Under the pieces are notes generated by a model, which worked only from the letters and a program-made list of their open reading frames with translations, did not search any database and was not told the DNA's origin. The position numbers were made by a program, and so were the translations under genes. Source: an uncultured Pedobacter sp. (GTDB taxonomy: Bacteria > Bacteroidota > Bacteroidia > Sphingobacteriales > Sphingobacteriaceae). From it: a stretch of 64,000 nt of DNA. Where the stretch lies: positions 1-64,000 of the forward strand of contig NZ_CAMLHF010000003.1 in the NCBI RefSeq assembly GCF_946479715.1, read 5' to 3'. The stretch's first letter is position 1. Each line of letters starts with the position of its first letter. Below, one piece after another: positions 14,443 to 37,007 of the stretch.

Positions 14443-14451
14443 GTTTTAATC

Positions 14452-14817
14452 GGTGGACCCGAAGGGAGTCGAACCCTTGTCCAGTTGTGTGATAAATTAT
14501 GCTTTCTTCATGCTTATTTTCCAATTAATTGTAGGGATCTGGCGGGCTGGAAACCGACCTAACCTTTCACCTTAGGTACTTTATCTCACAAATGTAGCGT
14601 ACCTTACAAATGCCAGCTTCGTTATTTCGATGCTCCGGATTCTAACCTAACGATGCAGCAGCTAGAGGAACAAAAGCTTATCTAATTCTAAATTAGGCAG
14701 CTAAGGCGTAGTTATTTTCGCCAATTATAGTTTGAACGTTATCTTTTAAGTGCTCTCCGTACAACGCACTGCATGCTTACATACTCAGCGCCACCCTGTC
14801 AAATCCAGAACGAGCCC
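14452..14817 (-). ncRNA. ssrA: tmRNA (ssrA), tag GENNYALAA
   Basis: On the minus strand the 5' end GGGCTCG pairs over 7 bases with CGGGTCC near the 3' end. The 5' domain continues with TTCTGGATTTGACA, and the 3' domain has the T-arm GGTTCGACTCC, all hallmarks of tmRNA. The tag frame starts at resume codon GGC (14720-14722) and reads G-E-N-N-Y-A-L-A-A, ending in TAA (14693-14695), with the -ALAA degron recognised by ClpXP-type proteases. The length is about 366 bases. The 3' terminal A of CCA is not encoded. Function: rescue of stalled ribosomes with SmpB, whose gene is not in this window. Confidence 0.96.
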
Positions 14818-19156: not shown

Positions 19157-20248
19157 TTATGCTAATTTGCTTGATCTGTTTCTAAGTAAATGATCGGCTA
19201 GCACTAATGCTGCCATTGCCTCAACAATTACAACTGCACGAGGCACAACACATGGATCGTGTCTGCCTTTTCCTTTAATTTCCGCAGCTTCGCCTGCAGC
19301 ATTTATGGTTTGCTGGTTGTGCATAATCGTTGCAACCGGTTTAAAGGCTACTGTGAAATTGATTTCCATTCCGTTAGAAATACCTCCCTGGATTCCGCCA
19401 GAGAAGTTGGTAAGTGTCTTAGGCTGACCTTCATTTGCTAAAAAGATATCATTGTGCTCTGATCCCCTCATTTCGCTTCCGCTAAATCCAGAACCATATT
19501 CAAAACCATGAACCGCATTAATGCTTAGCATGGCTTTACCCAGATCTGCATGAAGTTTATCAAATACAGGTTCTCCTAAGCCAACAGGACAGTTTTTAAC
19601 AATACAATTGATCTTTCCGCCTACTGTATCGCCATCCTTACGAACACCATCAATAAATTCGATCATTTGATTTGCGATAGCTGGATCTGCGCAGCGAACA
19701 ATGTTTTCTTCGCGGATAGCCAACAAATCAGCAATGTTTTTACTTTCAAGATTAGGTGCTTCGATTTTGCCTACTGAAGATACGTGCGCAAAAACTTCAA
19801 TACCATGGTGTTTTAACAACAACTTGGCAATAGCTCCTGCTGCAACGCGGGCAGCTGTTTCACGAGCTGATGAGCGTCCGCCACCACGGTGATCACGAAT
19901 GCCATATTTAGCATCATAAGTGTAATCAGCATGAGAGGGGCGATAAACATCAGTATTATGACTATAATCTTTACTGCGCTGATCTTCGTTTGGAATAAGC
20001 ATTGCAATTGGCGTACCTGTACTTTTTCCTTCAAATGTTCCTGAAAGTATTTGTACAGTATCGCTCTCTTTGCGTTGGGTAGTAATCTTAGATTGCCCTG
20101 GTTTGCGTTTGTCTAACTCTGATTGTATAAAATCAAGGTCGATGGGCAATTGCGCCGGACATCCATCCAGAATAACACCAATGGCTACACCATGTGATTC
20201 CCCAAAGGTAGTGATGCGAAATAATTGCCCGAATGTGTTGCCTGCCAT
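19157..20248 (-). CDS. aroC: Chorismate synthase
   Basis: The protein has 363 residues, the standard size. All signature segments are visible: [17 protein letters not shown] near the N-terminus, [30 protein letters not shown], and GSEHNDIF. It converts 5-enolpyruvylshikimate-3-phosphate to chorismate using reduced FMN, the last common step of aromatic biosynthesis. It lies 24 bases after aroA on the minus strand and is the last gene of the aromatic cluster before a strong terminator. It is probably co-transcribed from the attenuated pheA promoter (inference from spacing). Confidence 0.96.
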
Positions 20249-20272: not shown

Positions 20273-21526
20273 TTAAATCTCTGTAACTGTAAACCCTGCT
20301 TTTACTAAATCTTTCCAGAAATCAGGATAAGATTTTTCTACAACATCCATTTCTTCCAGAACAACTTCGTTTATAACCAGACTAAGCGGAGCAAAGGCCA
20401 TCGCCATTCTATGGTCTTCGTAAGTTGCAAAAGATACCCTTTCAGGGAAGTTTAGCTGGTCGCAGTTCAGTGTATAAATAAAGTTGTCTTCATTTAAAGT
20501 TACACCAATCTTTGAAAGTTCATTTTGTAAAGCCAAAACACGATCAGTTTCTTTGATCTTTAAGGTTTCCAGGCCAGTGAATTTAAGGTTTTTTCTTAAA
20601 GCAGCGGCACATACAATAATGGTTTGTGCTAAATCCGGACAATCTTTCAGATCAAGAATATCATCATTAAAGTTTGTTTCAGTGGTTGTCAGGTTAATTC
20701 CTTTATCAGTTTTAGCTGTTTTTACCCCAAAGGCAGTCATAATTTCTCTGATACGACTATCGCCTTGCAGGCTTTTATCTTTTAGATAAGGCAAACCGAT
20801 CTGTGCATTTTGTGCAAGCGCGGCGATGCTATACCAATATGAAGCTGCACTCCAGTCGGGTTCTACTGCAAGTGTAGCCGGGTTAAAAGTTTGCGGCTTA
20901 ATGGTGATGTTGTTTCCAGACCATTCATGCGTGATGCCTGCTTCCTGAAGCATGTCTAACGTCATTTTAACATAAGGAAGGGAGGTTAACTCACCTTCAA
21001 TCTGTAGCGTTAGGCCTTGCGGTAAAGTAGGTGCAATCATCAATAAAGCAGAAATGTACTGGCTACTTATGTCACCTTTAATTTTAACGGTATCAGTACT
21101 TTGCTTTAACGGACCATTGATGTTTAACGGAGGAAATCCGTCTTGTTCAAGGTAAGTAATATCAGCACCGATGTTTTTTAATGCTTCAGCAAGAATACCA
21201 ATGGGGCGTTGTTTCATTCTTTCTGTTCCTGTTAACAAAAAATTACCAGGTAGGGTAGAGAGCATGGCTGTTAAAAAACGCATTGCAGTACCCGCAGGGC
21301 CCACATCAACGGTTTGTTGATGTGGGTTATTTTGCGAGATATTATTTAATATACTGTTTAAAGTAACAGTATCAGCAGCATTAGACATATTATCAACCTT
21401 TACAGTCCCCTTACTCAAAGAGCTGATAATTAATGCTCTGTTACACTCACTCTTAGAGCCTGTAAGTGTAATTTCTGTATCTATTTGTTTGTTTCCTTGA
21501 AAAGAAACAAGCGCATGTTTACTCAT
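20273..21526 (-). CDS. aroA: 3-phosphoshikimate 1-carboxyvinyltransferase (EPSP synthase)
   Basis: The protein has 417 residues. Motifs are the N-terminal TGSKSECNRALIIS, GPAGTAMRFLTA (the glyphosate-contacting region) and DHRMAMAFAPLSL, the last with the conserved D-H-R. The shikimate-phosphate segment SSQYISALL is also present. The enzyme joins phosphoenolpyruvate to shikimate-3-phosphate. The start lies 2 bases after the DAHP synthase stop, so it is tightly coupled. The length is slightly shorter than the E. coli enzyme, as usual in Bacteroidota. Confidence 0.95.
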   Translation of the reverse strand: MSKHALVSFQGNKQIDTEITLTGSKSECNRALIISSLSKGTVKVDNMSNAADTVTLNSILNNISQNNPHQQTVDVGPAGTAMRFLTAMLSTLPGNFLLTGTERMKQRPIGILAEALKNIGADITYLEQDGFPPLNINGPLKQSTDTVKIKGDISSQYISALLMIAPTLPQGLTLQIEGELTSLPYVKMTLDMLQEAGITHEWSGNNITIKPQTFNPATLAVEPDWSAASYWYSIAALAQNAQIGLPYLKDKSLQGDSRIREIMTAFGVKTAKTDKGINLTTTETNFNDDILDLKDCPDLAQTIIVCAAALRKNLKFTGLETLKIKETDRVLALQNELSKIGVTLNEDNFIYTLNCDQLNFPERVSFATYEDHRMAMAFAPLSLVINEVVLEEMDVVEKSYPDFWKDLVKAGFTVTEI

Positions 21527-21528
21527 TA

Positions 21529-22668
21529 TTAAGACTTAACTTCTGTGTGTGCTTCTGCTGCAATTCCTTTTTCGGCTTTGCCTGCGTTCATGATCTCAGT
21601 TTGTTTACGGATAGATTCACCGTGAACAAGTTCTAAAAATTTCTCAGTAAAGTTTAAGTCTAATTTTAGTGCTTTTGCAAATGAGATACCTTTTTTAATG
21701 ATGGCATCCCAACGGTTAACCTGTAAAATTGTAACCTGGTTATCGCGTTTGTACTCACCGATTTTAGCAACGATAGACATACGCTCACCTAATTTTTGTA
21801 ATAAGATGTCGTCAATTTTATCGATTTGCTTACGGAATTCAGCTAATTGATCAGAGATCGCTTCATTTTTAGTTTCTGGTTCGCGAACTGTCAAGCGGTC
21901 AACCAACTCAGCTAAAGCAGCTGGAGTTACTTGTTGCTTAGCATCAGTCCATGCAACAGAAGGGTCAACATGCGACTCGATCATTAAACCTTGCATATCT
22001 AAGTCTAATGCTTTTTGAGAGATGTAAGGAATTAACTCTCTGTTACCACAGATGTGACTTGGATCGTTAATGATTGGCAACTCAGGGCATAATGTTTTCA
22101 ACTGGATAGCAAGTTCCCACATTGGTTCGTTACGGAACGAGCTTTTCTCGAATGAAGAGAAACCACGGTGAATAGCACCTAATTTAGTGATACCAGCGCC
22201 ATTGATACGCTCTAAAGCACCAACCCATAGTTGTAAATCAGGGTTTACAGGGTTTTTAACTAATACCGGAATGTCAACACCTTTTAAAGCGTCAGCAATT
22301 TCCTGAACTGTGAATGGGTTTACTGTTGAACGTGCACCAATCCAAAGGATATCTACACCAGCAGCTAAAGCTTCTTCAACGTGTTTAGCATTTGCAACCT
22401 CTACAGCTGTTGGTAAACCAGTTTCTAATTTAGCTCTTTTTAACCACTCTAAACCTATACTTCCAATTCCTTCGAATTCTCCCGGACGAGTACGTGGTTT
22501 CCAGATACCTGCTCTTAAAACAGATACTTTTCCTGTTGCAGCCAATAAATGAGCTGTAGTTAATAATTGTTCTTCAGTTTCTGCACTACAAGGTCCTGAG
22601 ATGATCAAAGGCTCGTTGTTGATGTTAAGCCAGGTGTTAAGCGGTTGAATGTTTAATTGTAATTTCAT
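21529..22668 (-). CDS. Bifunctional DAHP synthase / chorismate mutase
   Basis: The protein has 379 residues. The N-terminal part (about 1-260) is a type I DAHP synthase of the B. subtilis AroA-like subgroup, with GPCSAET, RAGIWKPRTRPGEFEG, DILWIGARSTVNPF and DPSHICGNRE. The C-terminal part (about 270-355) is an AroQ-type helical chorismate mutase (LAEFRKQIDKIDDILLQKLGERMSIVAKIGEYK). It thus catalyses the first committed pathway step and the chorismate-to-prephenate step. Fusion with C-terminal mutase is typical of Bacteroidota, and the mutase may serve as a feedback sensor (family knowledge). It lies 54 bases after pheA. No tyrA lies in this cluster. Confidence 0.93.
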   Translation of the reverse strand: MKLQLNIQPLNTWLNINNEPLIISGPCSAETEEQLLTTAHLLAATGKVSVLRAGIWKPRTRPGEFEGIGSIGLEWLKRAKLETGLPTAVEVANAKHVEEALAAGVDILWIGARSTVNPFTVQEIADALKGVDIPVLVKNPVNPDLQLWVGALERINGAGITKLGAIHRGFSSFEKSSFRNEPMWELAIQLKTLCPELPIINDPSHICGNRELIPYISQKALDLDMQGLMIESHVDPSVAWTDAKQQVTPAALAELVDRLTVREPETKNEAISDQLAEFRKQIDKIDDILLQKLGERMSIVAKIGEYKRDNQVTILQVNRWDAIIKKGISFAKALKLDLNFTEKFLELVHGESIRKQTEIMNAGKAEKGIAAEAHTEVKS

Positions 22669-22722: not shown

Positions 22723-23556
22723 TTATACTTTATCGTTTTTCTGATACTCGCCCATGATAGTAAAGTTCACGGTGTATTTAAGGGCCTGGCGGACAGCCTT
22801 ATCATAAGCTTCCATGTTTTTCCATTCCATATCTACATAGAAGTAATATTCATTTCTTTTTCCAAGCACAGGCATGCTTTGTATTTTACTTAAGTTAACC
22901 TGCTGGTCAGCAAAGATGTTTAATACTTTAACCAGGGCACCCACATGGTTACTTACCTGAAAGCAAATAGATGCTTTATTGATTGGAGTACCTTCTTCAG
23001 CCGTTCCTTTTTTAAGAATTAGAAAACGGGTAAAGTTTTTCTTGTTAGATTCAATTCTTCTTTCAATGATATTTAGTCCGTACAGTTCAGCCGCAAGCGT
23101 ATTTGCTATAGCAACTGTATCTGTAAGCTGTTCTTCTTTAATACGCTTAGCACAAGCCGCAGTATCATTACTCTCTATGATCTGGATCTGAGGGTAATCT
23201 TCAAAGAAATCAACGCATTGGCGAATAGCAATAGGGTGGGAAGTAGCATATTTAACATCCTCAAACTTTACACCAGGCAGTGCCATCAGGTGAAGTTGAA
23301 TAGCCAGGTAAACTTCGCCAACTACAGCGAAATTGTATTCACGTATTAAGGTATAGTTGGGTAGAAGACTTCCGGCTATTGAATTTTCAATTGCCATTAC
23401 CACGAAGTCTGCACCATCGTTCTCTAAAACCTCGCATGTGTGTTTAAAGGAAGTACATTCAATGGTTTGAATGTCTTTTCCGAAAAACTTGAATGCGGCC
23501 TCTTCGTGAAATGAAGCTTTAATGCCTTGAATTGCTACTCTTGTTCCTTTTTTCAT
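22723..23556 (-). CDS. pheA: Prephenate dehydratase with ACT domain
   Basis: The protein has 277 residues. The catalytic domain (about 1-185) carries GIKASFHEEAAFKFF, the VMAIENSIAGSL loop, and the NFTRFLILKK segment with the conserved Thr-Arg-Phe. An ACT regulatory domain follows (about 195-270; KASICFQVSNHVGALVKVLNIFADQQVNLSKIQSMP). It converts prephenate to phenylpyruvate and is expected to be inhibited by Phe through the ACT domain. It is a stand-alone enzyme without mutase, because the mutase sits on the next gene. Upstream lies a leader-peptide attenuator (23618-23794), so this gene heads the regulated unit pheA, DAHP synthase-mutase, aroA, aroC. Confidence 0.95.
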   Translation of the reverse strand: MKKGTRVAIQGIKASFHEEAAFKFFGKDIQTIECTSFKHTCEVLENDGADFVVMAIENSIAGSLLPNYTLIREYNFAVVGEVYLAIQLHLMALPGVKFEDVKYATSHPIAIRQCVDFFEDYPQIQIIESNDTAACAKRIKEEQLTDTVAIANTLAAELYGLNIIERRIESNKKNFTRFLILKKGTAEEGTPINKASICFQVSNHVGALVKVLNIFADQQVNLSKIQSMPVLGKRNEYYFYVDMEWKNMEAYDKAVRQALKYTVNFTIMGEYQKNDKV

Positions 23557-23617: not shown

Positions 23618-23648
23618 AAAAAAGTCCCGGCTTTAGACCGGGACTTTT
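23618..23648 (-). terminator. Attenuator terminator ahead of pheA
   Basis: On the minus strand an 11-pair stem AAAAGTCCCGG / CCGGGACTTTT with a 7-base loop runs into TTTTTT. It lies 62 bases before the pheA ATG and downstream of a short aromatic-rich reading frame. It is therefore positioned to end transcription before the structural genes rather than to end aroB, whose stop is more than 200 bases upstream. Confidence 0.88.
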
Positions 23649-23682
23649 CGTATACATTTATCTTATTAGATTCTAGTGCATA

Positions 23683-23745
23683 TTAGTCCCGGCTCTTACT
23701 AAAGTAGTAGAAGTAACCAAACCAATATGTAGTGATATTTTTCAA
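23683..23745 (-). CDS. Aromatic leader peptide of the pheA attenuator
   Basis: A 20-residue frame with TTG start reads M-K-N-I-T-T-Y-W-F-G-Y-F-Y-Y-F-S-K-S-R-D and then TAA. Residues 7-15 contain four Tyr, three Phe and one Trp. A purine-rich GAAAAGAAA lies just upstream of the TTG. An in-frame TAG lies nine codons beyond the first possible upstream codons, and no ATG is available in frame, so TTG is the best start. Stalling at the aromatic codons would leave the downstream antiterminator arm free, whereas reading through would cover it. This is the logic of the classic Phe and Trp attenuators. The peptide itself needs no other function. Confidence 0.8.
   Translation of the reverse strand: MKNITTYWFGYFYYFSKSRD
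23685..23694 (-). promoter_or_regulatory. Antiterminator arm overlapping the end of the leader peptide
   Basis: The minus-strand AGCCGGGACT here is identical over 10 bases to the 3' arm region of the terminator (23623-23632). It can therefore pair with the terminator's 5' arm AGTCCCGGT (23637-23645) and prevent terminator formation. It coincides with the last codons and stop of the leader peptide, so a ribosome finishing the peptide would cover it. Confidence 0.8.
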
Positions 23746-23764
23746 AATTTTCTTTTCGTTTCGC

Positions 23765-23794
23765 CAAATGTACTAACAAAATTTAATTTGTCAA
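23765..23794 (-). promoter_or_regulatory. Promoter of the pheA leader
   Basis: On the minus strand TTG (23792-23794), exactly 19 bases, then TACATTTG (23765-23772) is a full match to the Bacteroidota promoter consensus. Transcription would start near 23759, leaving about 14 bases before the leader-peptide TTG. It lies inside the aroB-pheA gap and shows that pheA does not depend on read-through from aroB. Confidence 0.75.
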
Positions 23795-23854: not shown

Positions 23855-24934
23855 TTAGGCATTTTGTGGCTTGGAAGTTAAGGTGTTCAGGTAAGTAAAA
23901 CTATCCAAAATGTCGGTTTTTGATACTCTACAGTTAAAATCACAGGCTCCAATGCGGCTCAATAAAGAGAACATAATCTGTCCATTTTCATTCTTTTTAT
24001 CGCTTTGCATAAATTCCAATAACTGGTCAAAACTTTCTTTCTTAATGTGGTATTTGGGATATAGCTTTAAGATATAGGTACTGATATCGTTAAGTTCGTC
24101 CTTACTAAGCGTGTTGTTTTTGGCAGATAAGTAGCCTTCGCAAATCATACCTATGGCTATTGCCTCGCCGTGTGTTAAAGGATTTTTGTCGTTTATTAAA
24201 GAATAGGTTTCAACCGCATGACCTATGGTATGCCCGTAGTTTAATATTTTTCTTAATCCTTTTTCATGAGGGTCTTCTGTTACAACCTCATTTTTTATCT
24301 CTACCGAACGGTAAATAGCACTTGCGGCTATTTGTTCGTAATCACTGTTCTGTAACTCTGCATAATAGTCTTTGTCTACAATTAAACCATGTTTAATCAT
24401 TTCAGCAAAACCAGAAAGCAGTTCTCTTTTAGGCAAGGTGTTAAGGAAAGAAGTTTCAATAAATACAGCTTGAGGCAGGGTAAAGGTTCCAACCATATTT
24501 TTTACATTGTCTACATCAATACCAGTTTTACCACCTACTGATGCATCAACCTGCGAAAGAAGGGTAGTAGGAATATTAATAAAATCAATTCCACGTTTGT
24601 AAGTCGAGGCTACAAAGCCACCCATATCAGTAATCACGCCTCCACCTAAATTTATCATCAGGCATTTGCGGTCCGCTTCAAAATCCAATAGCGTTTTCCA
24701 GATGCCGATACAAAAATCAATGTTTTTGTTCTCTTCGCCAGGATCTGTTTCAATCAGATCAAATCCTGTAAAATCTCCCAGCATTTCCTGGAACCGGGGT
24801 AAACACAATTCTGCGGTATTGCGATCTACAAATACAAAAATCTTGCTGTATTTGCTGCTTTCTATAATTTCTACCAGAGGGGCAAGATTCGTTTCAAAAT
24901 GGATGGTATGTCCGGCACTGTTTAATTTGTTCAT
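23855..24934 (-). CDS. aroB: 3-dehydroquinate synthase
   Basis: The protein has 359 residues, of standard length. NAD-binding and catalytic segments are present: NLGGGVITDMGGFVASTYKRG, NIPTTLLSQVDASVGGKTGID, KHGLIVDKDYY, NYGHTIGHAVE and HGEAIAIGM, with the zinc-ligand Glu and His residues. It cyclises DAHP to 3-dehydroquinate. The start codon overlaps the stop of the S4-domain gene (TAATG), so both are one transcript. The stop is followed by about 60 bases of AT-rich sequence before the pheA promoter. Confidence 0.95.
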   Translation of the reverse strand: MNKLNSAGHTIHFETNLAPLVEIIESSKYSKIFVFVDRNTAELCLPRFQEMLGDFTGFDLIETDPGEENKNIDFCIGIWKTLLDFEADRKCLMINLGGGVITDMGGFVASTYKRGIDFINIPTTLLSQVDASVGGKTGIDVDNVKNMVGTFTLPQAVFIETSFLNTLPKRELLSGFAEMIKHGLIVDKDYYAELQNSDYEQIAASAIYRSVEIKNEVVTEDPHEKGLRKILNYGHTIGHAVETYSLINDKNPLTHGEAIAIGMICEGYLSAKNNTLSKDELNDISTYILKLYPKYHIKKESFDQLLEFMQSDKKNENGQIMFSLLSRIGACDFNCRVSKTDILDSFTYLNTLTSKPQNA

Positions 24935-36933: not shown

Positions 36934-37007
36934 TGGGCCCAGCTGGGCTCGAACCAGCGACCAAAAGATTATGAGTCTTCTACTCTAACCAACTGAGCTA
37001 TAGGCCC
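36934..37007 (-). tRNA. tRNA with anticodon CAT (Met elongator or Ile2)
   Basis: The minus strand gives a 7-pair acceptor stem GGGCCTA / TGGGCCC, a D-arm TAGCTCAGTTGGTTAGAG, an anticodon loop CTCATAA with anticodon CAT, and a T-arm GCTGGTTCGAGCCCAGC. CCA is not encoded. G1-C72 pairing excludes initiator tRNA. The T-arm and AATCxxTTGGTCGCTGG region resemble lysidine-modified tRNA-Ile2 of E. coli, while the acceptor fits Bacteroidota elongator Met, so identity is left open. Confidence 0.95.

Follow-up and report, generated by a model that had tools for sequence, protein, structure and literature searches.

Between aroB and pheA in this Pedobacter genome, a promoter, a short reading frame crowded with aromatic codons and a strong terminator follow one another, which raises the question of what a terminator does ahead of an aromatic amino acid operon and which signal would let transcription pass it. 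Within the window (the whole 64,000-nucleotide stretch of DNA that was analysed), we read this leader with high confidence, on comparative sequence evidence, as a classical ribosome-mediated transcription attenuator that would sense charged Phe-tRNA and Tyr-tRNA and control pheA, the gene for DAHP synthase-mutase, aroA and aroC. The element combines three features of the classical type: clustered codons for the product amino acids, an intrinsic terminator and a mutually exclusive antiterminator behind the sensor codons. Ribosome-mediated attenuation of the pheA operon had been proposed in the original prediction, and the comparative evidence supports it, with frame, arm and terminator conserved together.

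Architecture of the pheA leader

The first gene that would be regulated is pheA, encoding prephenate dehydratase (22723-23556, minus strand; PF00800, E 5e-53). Its match to NF008865 (E 2e-56) lies under the curated cut-off of that family, and the gene is 99-100% identical to those of Pedobacter sp. V48 and P. panaciterrae LMG 23400 (two records). On the same strand follow the genes for a bifunctional DAHP synthase/chorismate mutase (21529-22668; PF00793 and PF01817, above cut-offs), the EPSP synthase AroA (20273-21526; TIGR01356, above cut-off) and the chorismate synthase AroC (19157-20248; TIGR00033, above cut-off). The products of these four presumably cotranscribed genes make precursors of both Phe and Tyr, and no tyrA was seen among them. 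Directly upstream of the leader and pheA, also on the minus strand, lies aroB (23855-24934).

All elements of the leader lie on the minus strand. The predicted promoter (23765-23794), read from the sequence, consists of TTG at 23794-23792, a 19-nt spacer and TACATTTG at 23772-23765, a layout that we take to be the promoter type of the phylum Bacteroidota. Transcription starting from it would begin about 10-15 nt before the leader reading frame. This frame (23683-23745) would be translated from a TTG start and comprises 20 codons followed by TAA, giving MKNITTYWFGYFYYFSKSRD. Codons 7-15 (23701-23727), identified as sensor codons from the leader reading and a fold model, spell Tyr Trp Phe Gly Tyr Phe Tyr Tyr Phe, so that eight of the nine are aromatic. 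The end of the frame is overlapped by the antiterminator arm, region 2 (23677-23694, AGCCGGGACTAATATGCA), defined by its pairing with region 3. Region 3 (23637-23656, TGTATACGAAAAGTCCCGGT) is used twice, by the antiterminator together with region 2 and by the terminator together with region 4. The intrinsic terminator, regions 3:4 with a T-run (23618-23647), emerges from folding and covariation. An alternative hairpin 1:2 (23677-23730, ACATATTGGTTTGG... pairing with ...AGCCGGGACTAATATGC) was found by folding. Within region 2, the 10-base arm AGCCGGGACT (23694-23685) covers the final leader codons and reaches into the stop by one base; the same ten bases make up the greater part of the 3' arm in the terminator hairpin (23647-23621), whose T-run lies at 23623-23618. 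The original prediction named, in this order, the promoter, the 20-codon aromatic leader, ten bases overlapping its end and a strong terminator in which these ten bases recur, and all of them are present as predicted.

Folding of the 161-nt leader gave -41 kcal/mol as compared with -25.2 kcal/mol (sd 3.7) for shuffled sequences (z -4.3), and none of 200 shuffles reached so low a value. By themselves, the terminator hairpin and hairpin 1:2 fold with -17.6 and -17.1 kcal/mol, respectively. A simple consensus scan listed the promoter at 10 of 12 positions, with two promoter-like sites against 2.8 expected by chance. The same scan did not list the pheA leader terminator, probably because A-T pairs of the stem extend into the T-run, so that too few T remain after it. 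At gathering score, Rfam yielded a tmRNA and one tRNA for the whole window and no T-box or amino acid riboswitch; at E <= 10, the element itself gave weak matches only, all below gathering. The tmRNA gene (14451-14817) and the tRNA gene (36934-37007) both lie on the minus strand of the window.

Conservation of the leader and its codons

Four samples of pheA loci were compared. The Pedobacter group holds 80 loci named mostly Pedobacter, the best 80 of 200 confirmed pheA matches; one is cut by a contig end, leaving 79 complete loci. A second sample of 40 loci from other genera of the family was picked among the 135 of 151 family genomes with pheA, and two further samples reach beyond the family, with 40 loci from the rest of the class and 19 from the rest of the phylum. 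The latter two cover genomes with a pheA match, which was obtained in 31 of 109 and in 102 of 118 genomes. Three leaders that automatic finding missed or misread were set by hand after reading, three others missed by one search pattern were read directly, and at tandem loci one of the two leaders was counted.

Leader and terminator precede pheA in 79/79 complete loci of the Pedobacter group, in 40/40 loci from other genera of the family and in 30/40 loci of the class outside the family. Outside the class they were found in 2 of 19 loci, the other 17 being without them. The element thus extends beyond Sphingobacteriaceae, the family in which comparison had been suggested, as 30 of 40 class loci outside it have the leader. 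No adjacent leader was found at ten of these 40 class loci; two of the ten carry one at the head of the cluster, and at another (L163) a similar hairpin is present where no leader was found. At three loci (L137, L140 and L181), two aromatic leaders stand in tandem before pheA, each with its own terminator-like hairpin, possibly forming a double attenuator. The pheA genes of the two leader-bearing loci outside the class (L142 and L145) are 45% and 43% identical to that of the window, nearer than those of other outside-class genomes, and either transfer or a position near the class is suggested.

Pairwise identity is 0.70 in the leader, 0.82 in the arm and 0.83-0.84 in the terminator arms, as against 0.34 in the spacer. 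Comparison across relatives had been named as the test of the prediction: the aromatic frame, the arm and the terminator are kept together while the spacer has diverged, so that the refuting outcome, relatives with the hairpin but without the frame, was not borne out. A promoter of the form TTG-N17-22-TAnnTTTG precedes the leader in all 80 loci of the window and the Pedobacter group, in 31/40 of the other family loci and in 14/32 further loci. Among the leaders of the window and the Pedobacter group, 72 start with ATG and eight with TTG. On this comparative evidence, the occurrence of leader and terminator before pheA is not due to chance.

The terminator might simply belong to the upstream aroB, with an internal promoter serving pheA and the short reading frame being incidental. 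The position of aroB, directly upstream on the same strand, fits this explanation, as does the fact that terminators between two genes are common. However, the pheA promoter lies upstream of the terminator, so that transcripts heading for pheA have to pass it as well. Moreover, just 25/79 Pedobacter-group loci have aroB on the strand of pheA and within 700 nt upstream of it, whereas leader and terminator are present in 79/79; the other 54 keep them with no aroB within that distance. An aroB terminator would also give no reason for the aromatic frame or for the coevolution of regions 2 and 3 described below. We consider this explanation extremely unlikely and retain that of an attenuator.

The codon content of the leaders offers a view of the signal. 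Phe and Tyr codons occur together in 151/151 leaders (window not counted), while the Trp codon TGG occurs in 75/151: 43/79 in the Pedobacter group, 20/40 in the rest of the family and 12/32 in the further leaders, which include the two loci outside the class. In these three groups, aromatic codons make up a fraction of 0.44, 0.43 and 0.38, as compared with 0.14, 0.14 and 0.17 after shuffling. This corresponds to a 2.3- to 3.1-fold enrichment in frame; in frames +1 and +2 the fraction is 0.05-0.14 and not enriched.

Such codons could in principle be a by-product of a U-rich arm 1 pairing with a purine-rich arm 2, as hairpin 1:2 is stable by itself and the motif ACATAT is nearly invariant among aligned leaders. 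Base composition of this kind would not explain why the enrichment is specific to one frame (0.38-0.44 versus 0.05-0.14 in the others). TTT/TTC and TAT/TAC exchanges occur among the leaders, Leu codons of like composition are few (17/1505, 11/756 and 22/723 codons in the three groups), and leaders of 21 residues exist, so one whole extra codon is tolerated; all of this argues against pairing as the origin of the codons. Hairpin 1:2 moreover has no clear covariation support (see below), and we give this explanation almost no weight as compared with selection for sensor codons.

A broader sensor of Phe, Tyr and Trp, as the original prediction had it, would count Trp among the signals. The window leader does contain one TGG, and 75/151 leaders contain at least one. 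Nevertheless, the other 76 have none, and TGG interchanges with Tyr codons at codon 8, where 51 distinct 20-codon leaders of the Pedobacter group carry TGG in 33 cases and TAC or TAT in 18. In addition, separate leaders with Trp codons, followed by terminators, stand before the presumable trpE in 3/5 Pedobacter genomes. A role of Trp as a signal appears unlikely to us, and this part of the prediction is not borne out, with TGG in about half of the leaders and Phe plus Tyr in all. Judged from codon content, the conserved signal is Phe plus Tyr, with Trp optional.

Coevolution of the arms and position of the ribosome

Pairing was evaluated in an alignment of 60 of the 106 distinct family leaders. 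The 46 omitted comprise 43 of the 66 from the window and the Pedobacter group and three of the 40 other family loci, these three being among the most divergent. In this alignment, the terminator 3:4 is paired in 98.1% of cells and shows two-sided changes at 7/9 pairs; none of 500 shuffles equals it on any of the five measures, and it lies far above versions slid along the alignment. The antiterminator 2:3 is paired in 95.9% of cells, with two-sided changes at 3/9 pairs (nine cells). Its percentage paired, number of cells and covariation score are above those of all 500 shuffles, whereas its number of two-sided pairs was reached by 46/500 and its pair types by 40/500. Sliding the antiterminator by 1-3 columns gave up to eight two-sided cells versus nine, up to four such pairs versus three, at most 55.7% of cells paired and a score of at most 0.088 versus 0.163. 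Clear separation from the slid versions is thus limited to the percentage paired and the covariation score. Hairpin 1:2 is paired in 88.1% of cells versus at most 48.1% when slid, and in this alignment no covariation clearly beyond shuffles was found for it. By this alignment, the terminator pairs covary strongly and the antiterminator pairs more weakly.

The fit between partner arms provides a second line of evidence for the antiterminator. At 73 loci, namely the window plus the non-Pedobacter loci, the 2:3 duplex has a mean energy of -16.8 kcal/mol with its own partner, as compared with -12.4 kcal/mol with partners swapped between species and -6.8 kcal/mol with shuffled ones. The own partner is better than the swapped one in 67/73 loci (Wilcoxon p 2e-12, not exact because the sequences are related), and six show no preference for it. 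Region 2 was sought only within 24 nt of the stop in this comparison, so that leaders with a far stop (e.g. L123, L124 and L172) score poorly. Natural triple changes illustrate the coevolution best: where GCCAGGAC is found in arm 2, the terminator has GTCCTGGC and GCCAGGAC (e.g. in L024).

A nearly fixed distance separates the sensor codons from arm 2. A clear duplex was obtained in 148/152 elements, the search beginning at the last aromatic codon, and in at least 146 of these 148 that codon lies 9-18 nt before arm 2. The median distance is 10 nt in the window and the Pedobacter group, 13 nt in the rest of the family and 15 nt in the remaining loci. The stop codon is far less constrained, falling 6-48 nt after the last aromatic codon across loci. 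In several genera (L087, L091, L105, L110, L112 and others) the peptide ends before arm 2 (e.g. YFYYYQ*) and elsewhere after it, with about the same distance between codon and arm.

These features also bear on whether the peptide itself could be the sensor. A TnaC-like, sequence-specific arrest of the nascent peptide would respond to a free aromatic compound rather than to tRNA charging, and a short aromatic reading frame upstream of an aromatic pathway, with a run nearly constant within Pedobacter, is what such a mechanism might look like. Across families, in contrast, the peptide varies in sequence (SYWYACWFFF, WQGFYFYFYFF and NYFFFYFYN, for example) and keeps only its Phe/Tyr content, and the distance from the end of the run to the stop varies between 6 and 48 nt. 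Arrest of this kind is very improbable in our view, and we return to a ribosome that would stall for lack of charged tRNA.

The consequences of such stalling were modelled with an assumed downstream ribosome footprint of 13 nt from the A-site. With the ribosome at codons 6-14, arm 2 is free in the model and 2:3 forms once region 3 has been made (P 1.00). At codon 15 the probability of 2:3 is 0.71, and from codon 16 on, with the arm covered, it is 0.01 or less. At equilibrium, the finished RNA favours the terminator wherever the ribosome stands (P(2:3) no higher than 0.09). As the terminator is favoured once region 4 has been made, antitermination must be kinetic. For RNA transcribed up to region 3 and free of ribosomes, the model prefers 2:3 (P 1.00) over hairpin 1:2, so that any protecting role of hairpin 1:2 could only be kinetic as well.

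We propose the following course of events. When Phe or Tyr is scarce, the ribosome would stall with one of codons 7-14 in the A-site and a footprint ending short of region 2, which could then pair with region 3 as soon as the latter is transcribed. With 2:3 paired, the 3:4 terminator would not form in time and the operon would be transcribed. When Phe and Tyr are plentiful, the ribosome would reach the stop and cover region 2, allowing 3:4 to pair and transcription to stop near 23618. Being the first to form, hairpin 1:2 may sequester region 2 as long as the leader is untranslated, which is the least supported step of this scheme.

Spread of the element and its relation to known leaders

A covariance model built from the alignment with the 1:2 and 3:4 pairs was used to follow the element through whole genomes. 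Of the 151 family genomes, 144 have a match at E <= 0.01, which in some is weak only (e.g. G006 and G011); at least 37 of the 60 sequences in the model originate from the genomes searched and match by construction. Among the 137 strongest matches, a match 12-92 nt before pheA was found for 129 of the 135 family genomes with pheA. Two genomes (G008 and G033) have a match before pheA at E 0.0016, and in another (G118) the leader was found by eye. Two weak matches away from pheA (L203 and L204) have a terminator-like hairpin each, and no aromatic leader was seen within the 300 nt read first; among the matches listed, further weak ones off the pheA position number at least two in G086 and at least one in G032.

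The position of the element within the cluster can be judged from genomes with a rearranged operon. In the three remaining family genomes with pheA (G124, G129 and G139), it stands before a gene read by eye as DAHP synthase-mutase, and the operon has apparently lost its pheA, which was replaced. These genomes represent one genus, and their sole pheA match, 39-40% identical, is located elsewhere. In two others (G226 and G259), pheA comes last in the cluster after an aroA-like gene, and an aromatic leader with terminator lies ~3.7 kb upstream before a gene read by eye as DAHP synthase. The leader thus stays before the DAHP synthase gene in five genomes in which pheA has left the operon head or the operon, indicating that the element belongs to the head of the gene cluster and not to pheA itself.

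The closest known counterpart by design is the Phe_leader of Proteobacteria (pheL-type), which has a leader peptide with sensor codons before pheA and a mutually exclusive antiterminator and terminator. These traits are common to both systems. The E. coli pheL peptide is rich in Phe and has no mix of Tyr and Phe, in contrast to the Pedobacter pheA leader, which mixes the two. By score, the window element is not a member of Phe_leader (RF01859; 20.8 bits versus a gathering score of 55) nor of Bacteroid-trp (RF01692; 21.6 bits versus 49, E 4.6), and neither family matched at gathering in 39 further sources, 29 of which are pheA or DAHP synthase leader loci. A Flavo-1 match at one locus (L126) runs antisense to the leader and was set aside. 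Attenuation of amino acid operons is also said to have been treated by Lopatovskaya et al. in 2010.

In a literature search mostly without subscription journals, we found no published description of a Phe/Tyr leader in Bacteroidota, and several reports come near it. The phylum is already known to contain Bacteroid-trp, the 'Bacteroidete tryptophan peptide leader RNA' (Weinberg et al. 2010, PMC2864571). It resembles the pheA leader as a leader-peptide element of the same phylum with an aligned stretch UACAUAUUGGU ... AAUAUG, but is named for Trp, whereas the pheA leader invariably carries Phe and Tyr and precedes a different operon. A 2021 transcriptome of Flavobacterium psychrophilum (PMC9723704) describes a structured 5' element upstream of pheA in this species and other Flavobacteriaceae genera, with no Rfam match, and 'strong clues' that amino acid operons are preceded by attenuators of the leader peptide type. 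Gene and phylum are the same, but section 19 of that paper names neither peptide nor codons for pheA; the leader, its arms, their coevolution and their spread are set out here. For Bacteroides thetaiotaomicron, a putative attenuator before pheA>hisHb>aroAI-beta-aroQ>tyrA was listed in 2005 (PMC1173090, Table 7), the prediction being taken from Merino's website of putative attenuators. Operon type and phylum agree with ours, but 'leader peptide' is not a term used in the text of that paper. An RNA map of the same species mentions leader-peptide-like short ORFs in general (PMC7366714).

Leaders for other amino acids were looked for in five Pedobacter genomes, in each of which the regions before hisG and two chorismate-binding (PF00425) genes were examined. 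Leaders with two Trp codons (TWQW; e.g. MINNIHTWQWRGNSEKSFVVTLCTL), followed by terminators, precede the presumable trpE in three of them (G001, G121 and G101), and none of these reaches the Bacteroid-trp gathering score. Short His-rich ORFs (MNTILNHHLHLHHRLLAMYM and MNLTLNFHYHFHHRHHGDR) lie shortly before hisG in two (G121 and G072), accompanied by weak hairpins only. No Rfam family was detected at gathering score in the scanned leader loci of trpE and hisG type.

The element represents an unnamed family of known mechanism that is widespread and partly foreshadowed in print. We think it probable that dual Phe and Tyr attenuators form one such family through much of Bacteroidia, which follows the first gene of the operon despite reordering or loss of pheA, occurs in tandem in some lineages and is held by selection to a fixed distance between last sensor codon and arm, rather than to a peptide sequence or stop position. 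The mechanism itself is textbook knowledge and will not surprise the specialist, although this branch has hardly been described. The comparative data set lends itself to finding out which attenuator features evolution holds and can serve as the basis for an Rfam family. With an aromatic attenuator so widely distributed in Bacteroidia, and with Trp leaders and possible His leaders also occurring in Pedobacter, such attenuation would seem to be a routine means of regulation in this class. For this soil bacterium and many of its relatives, the attenuator very probably provides a means to turn on aromatic amino acid synthesis in times of shortage.
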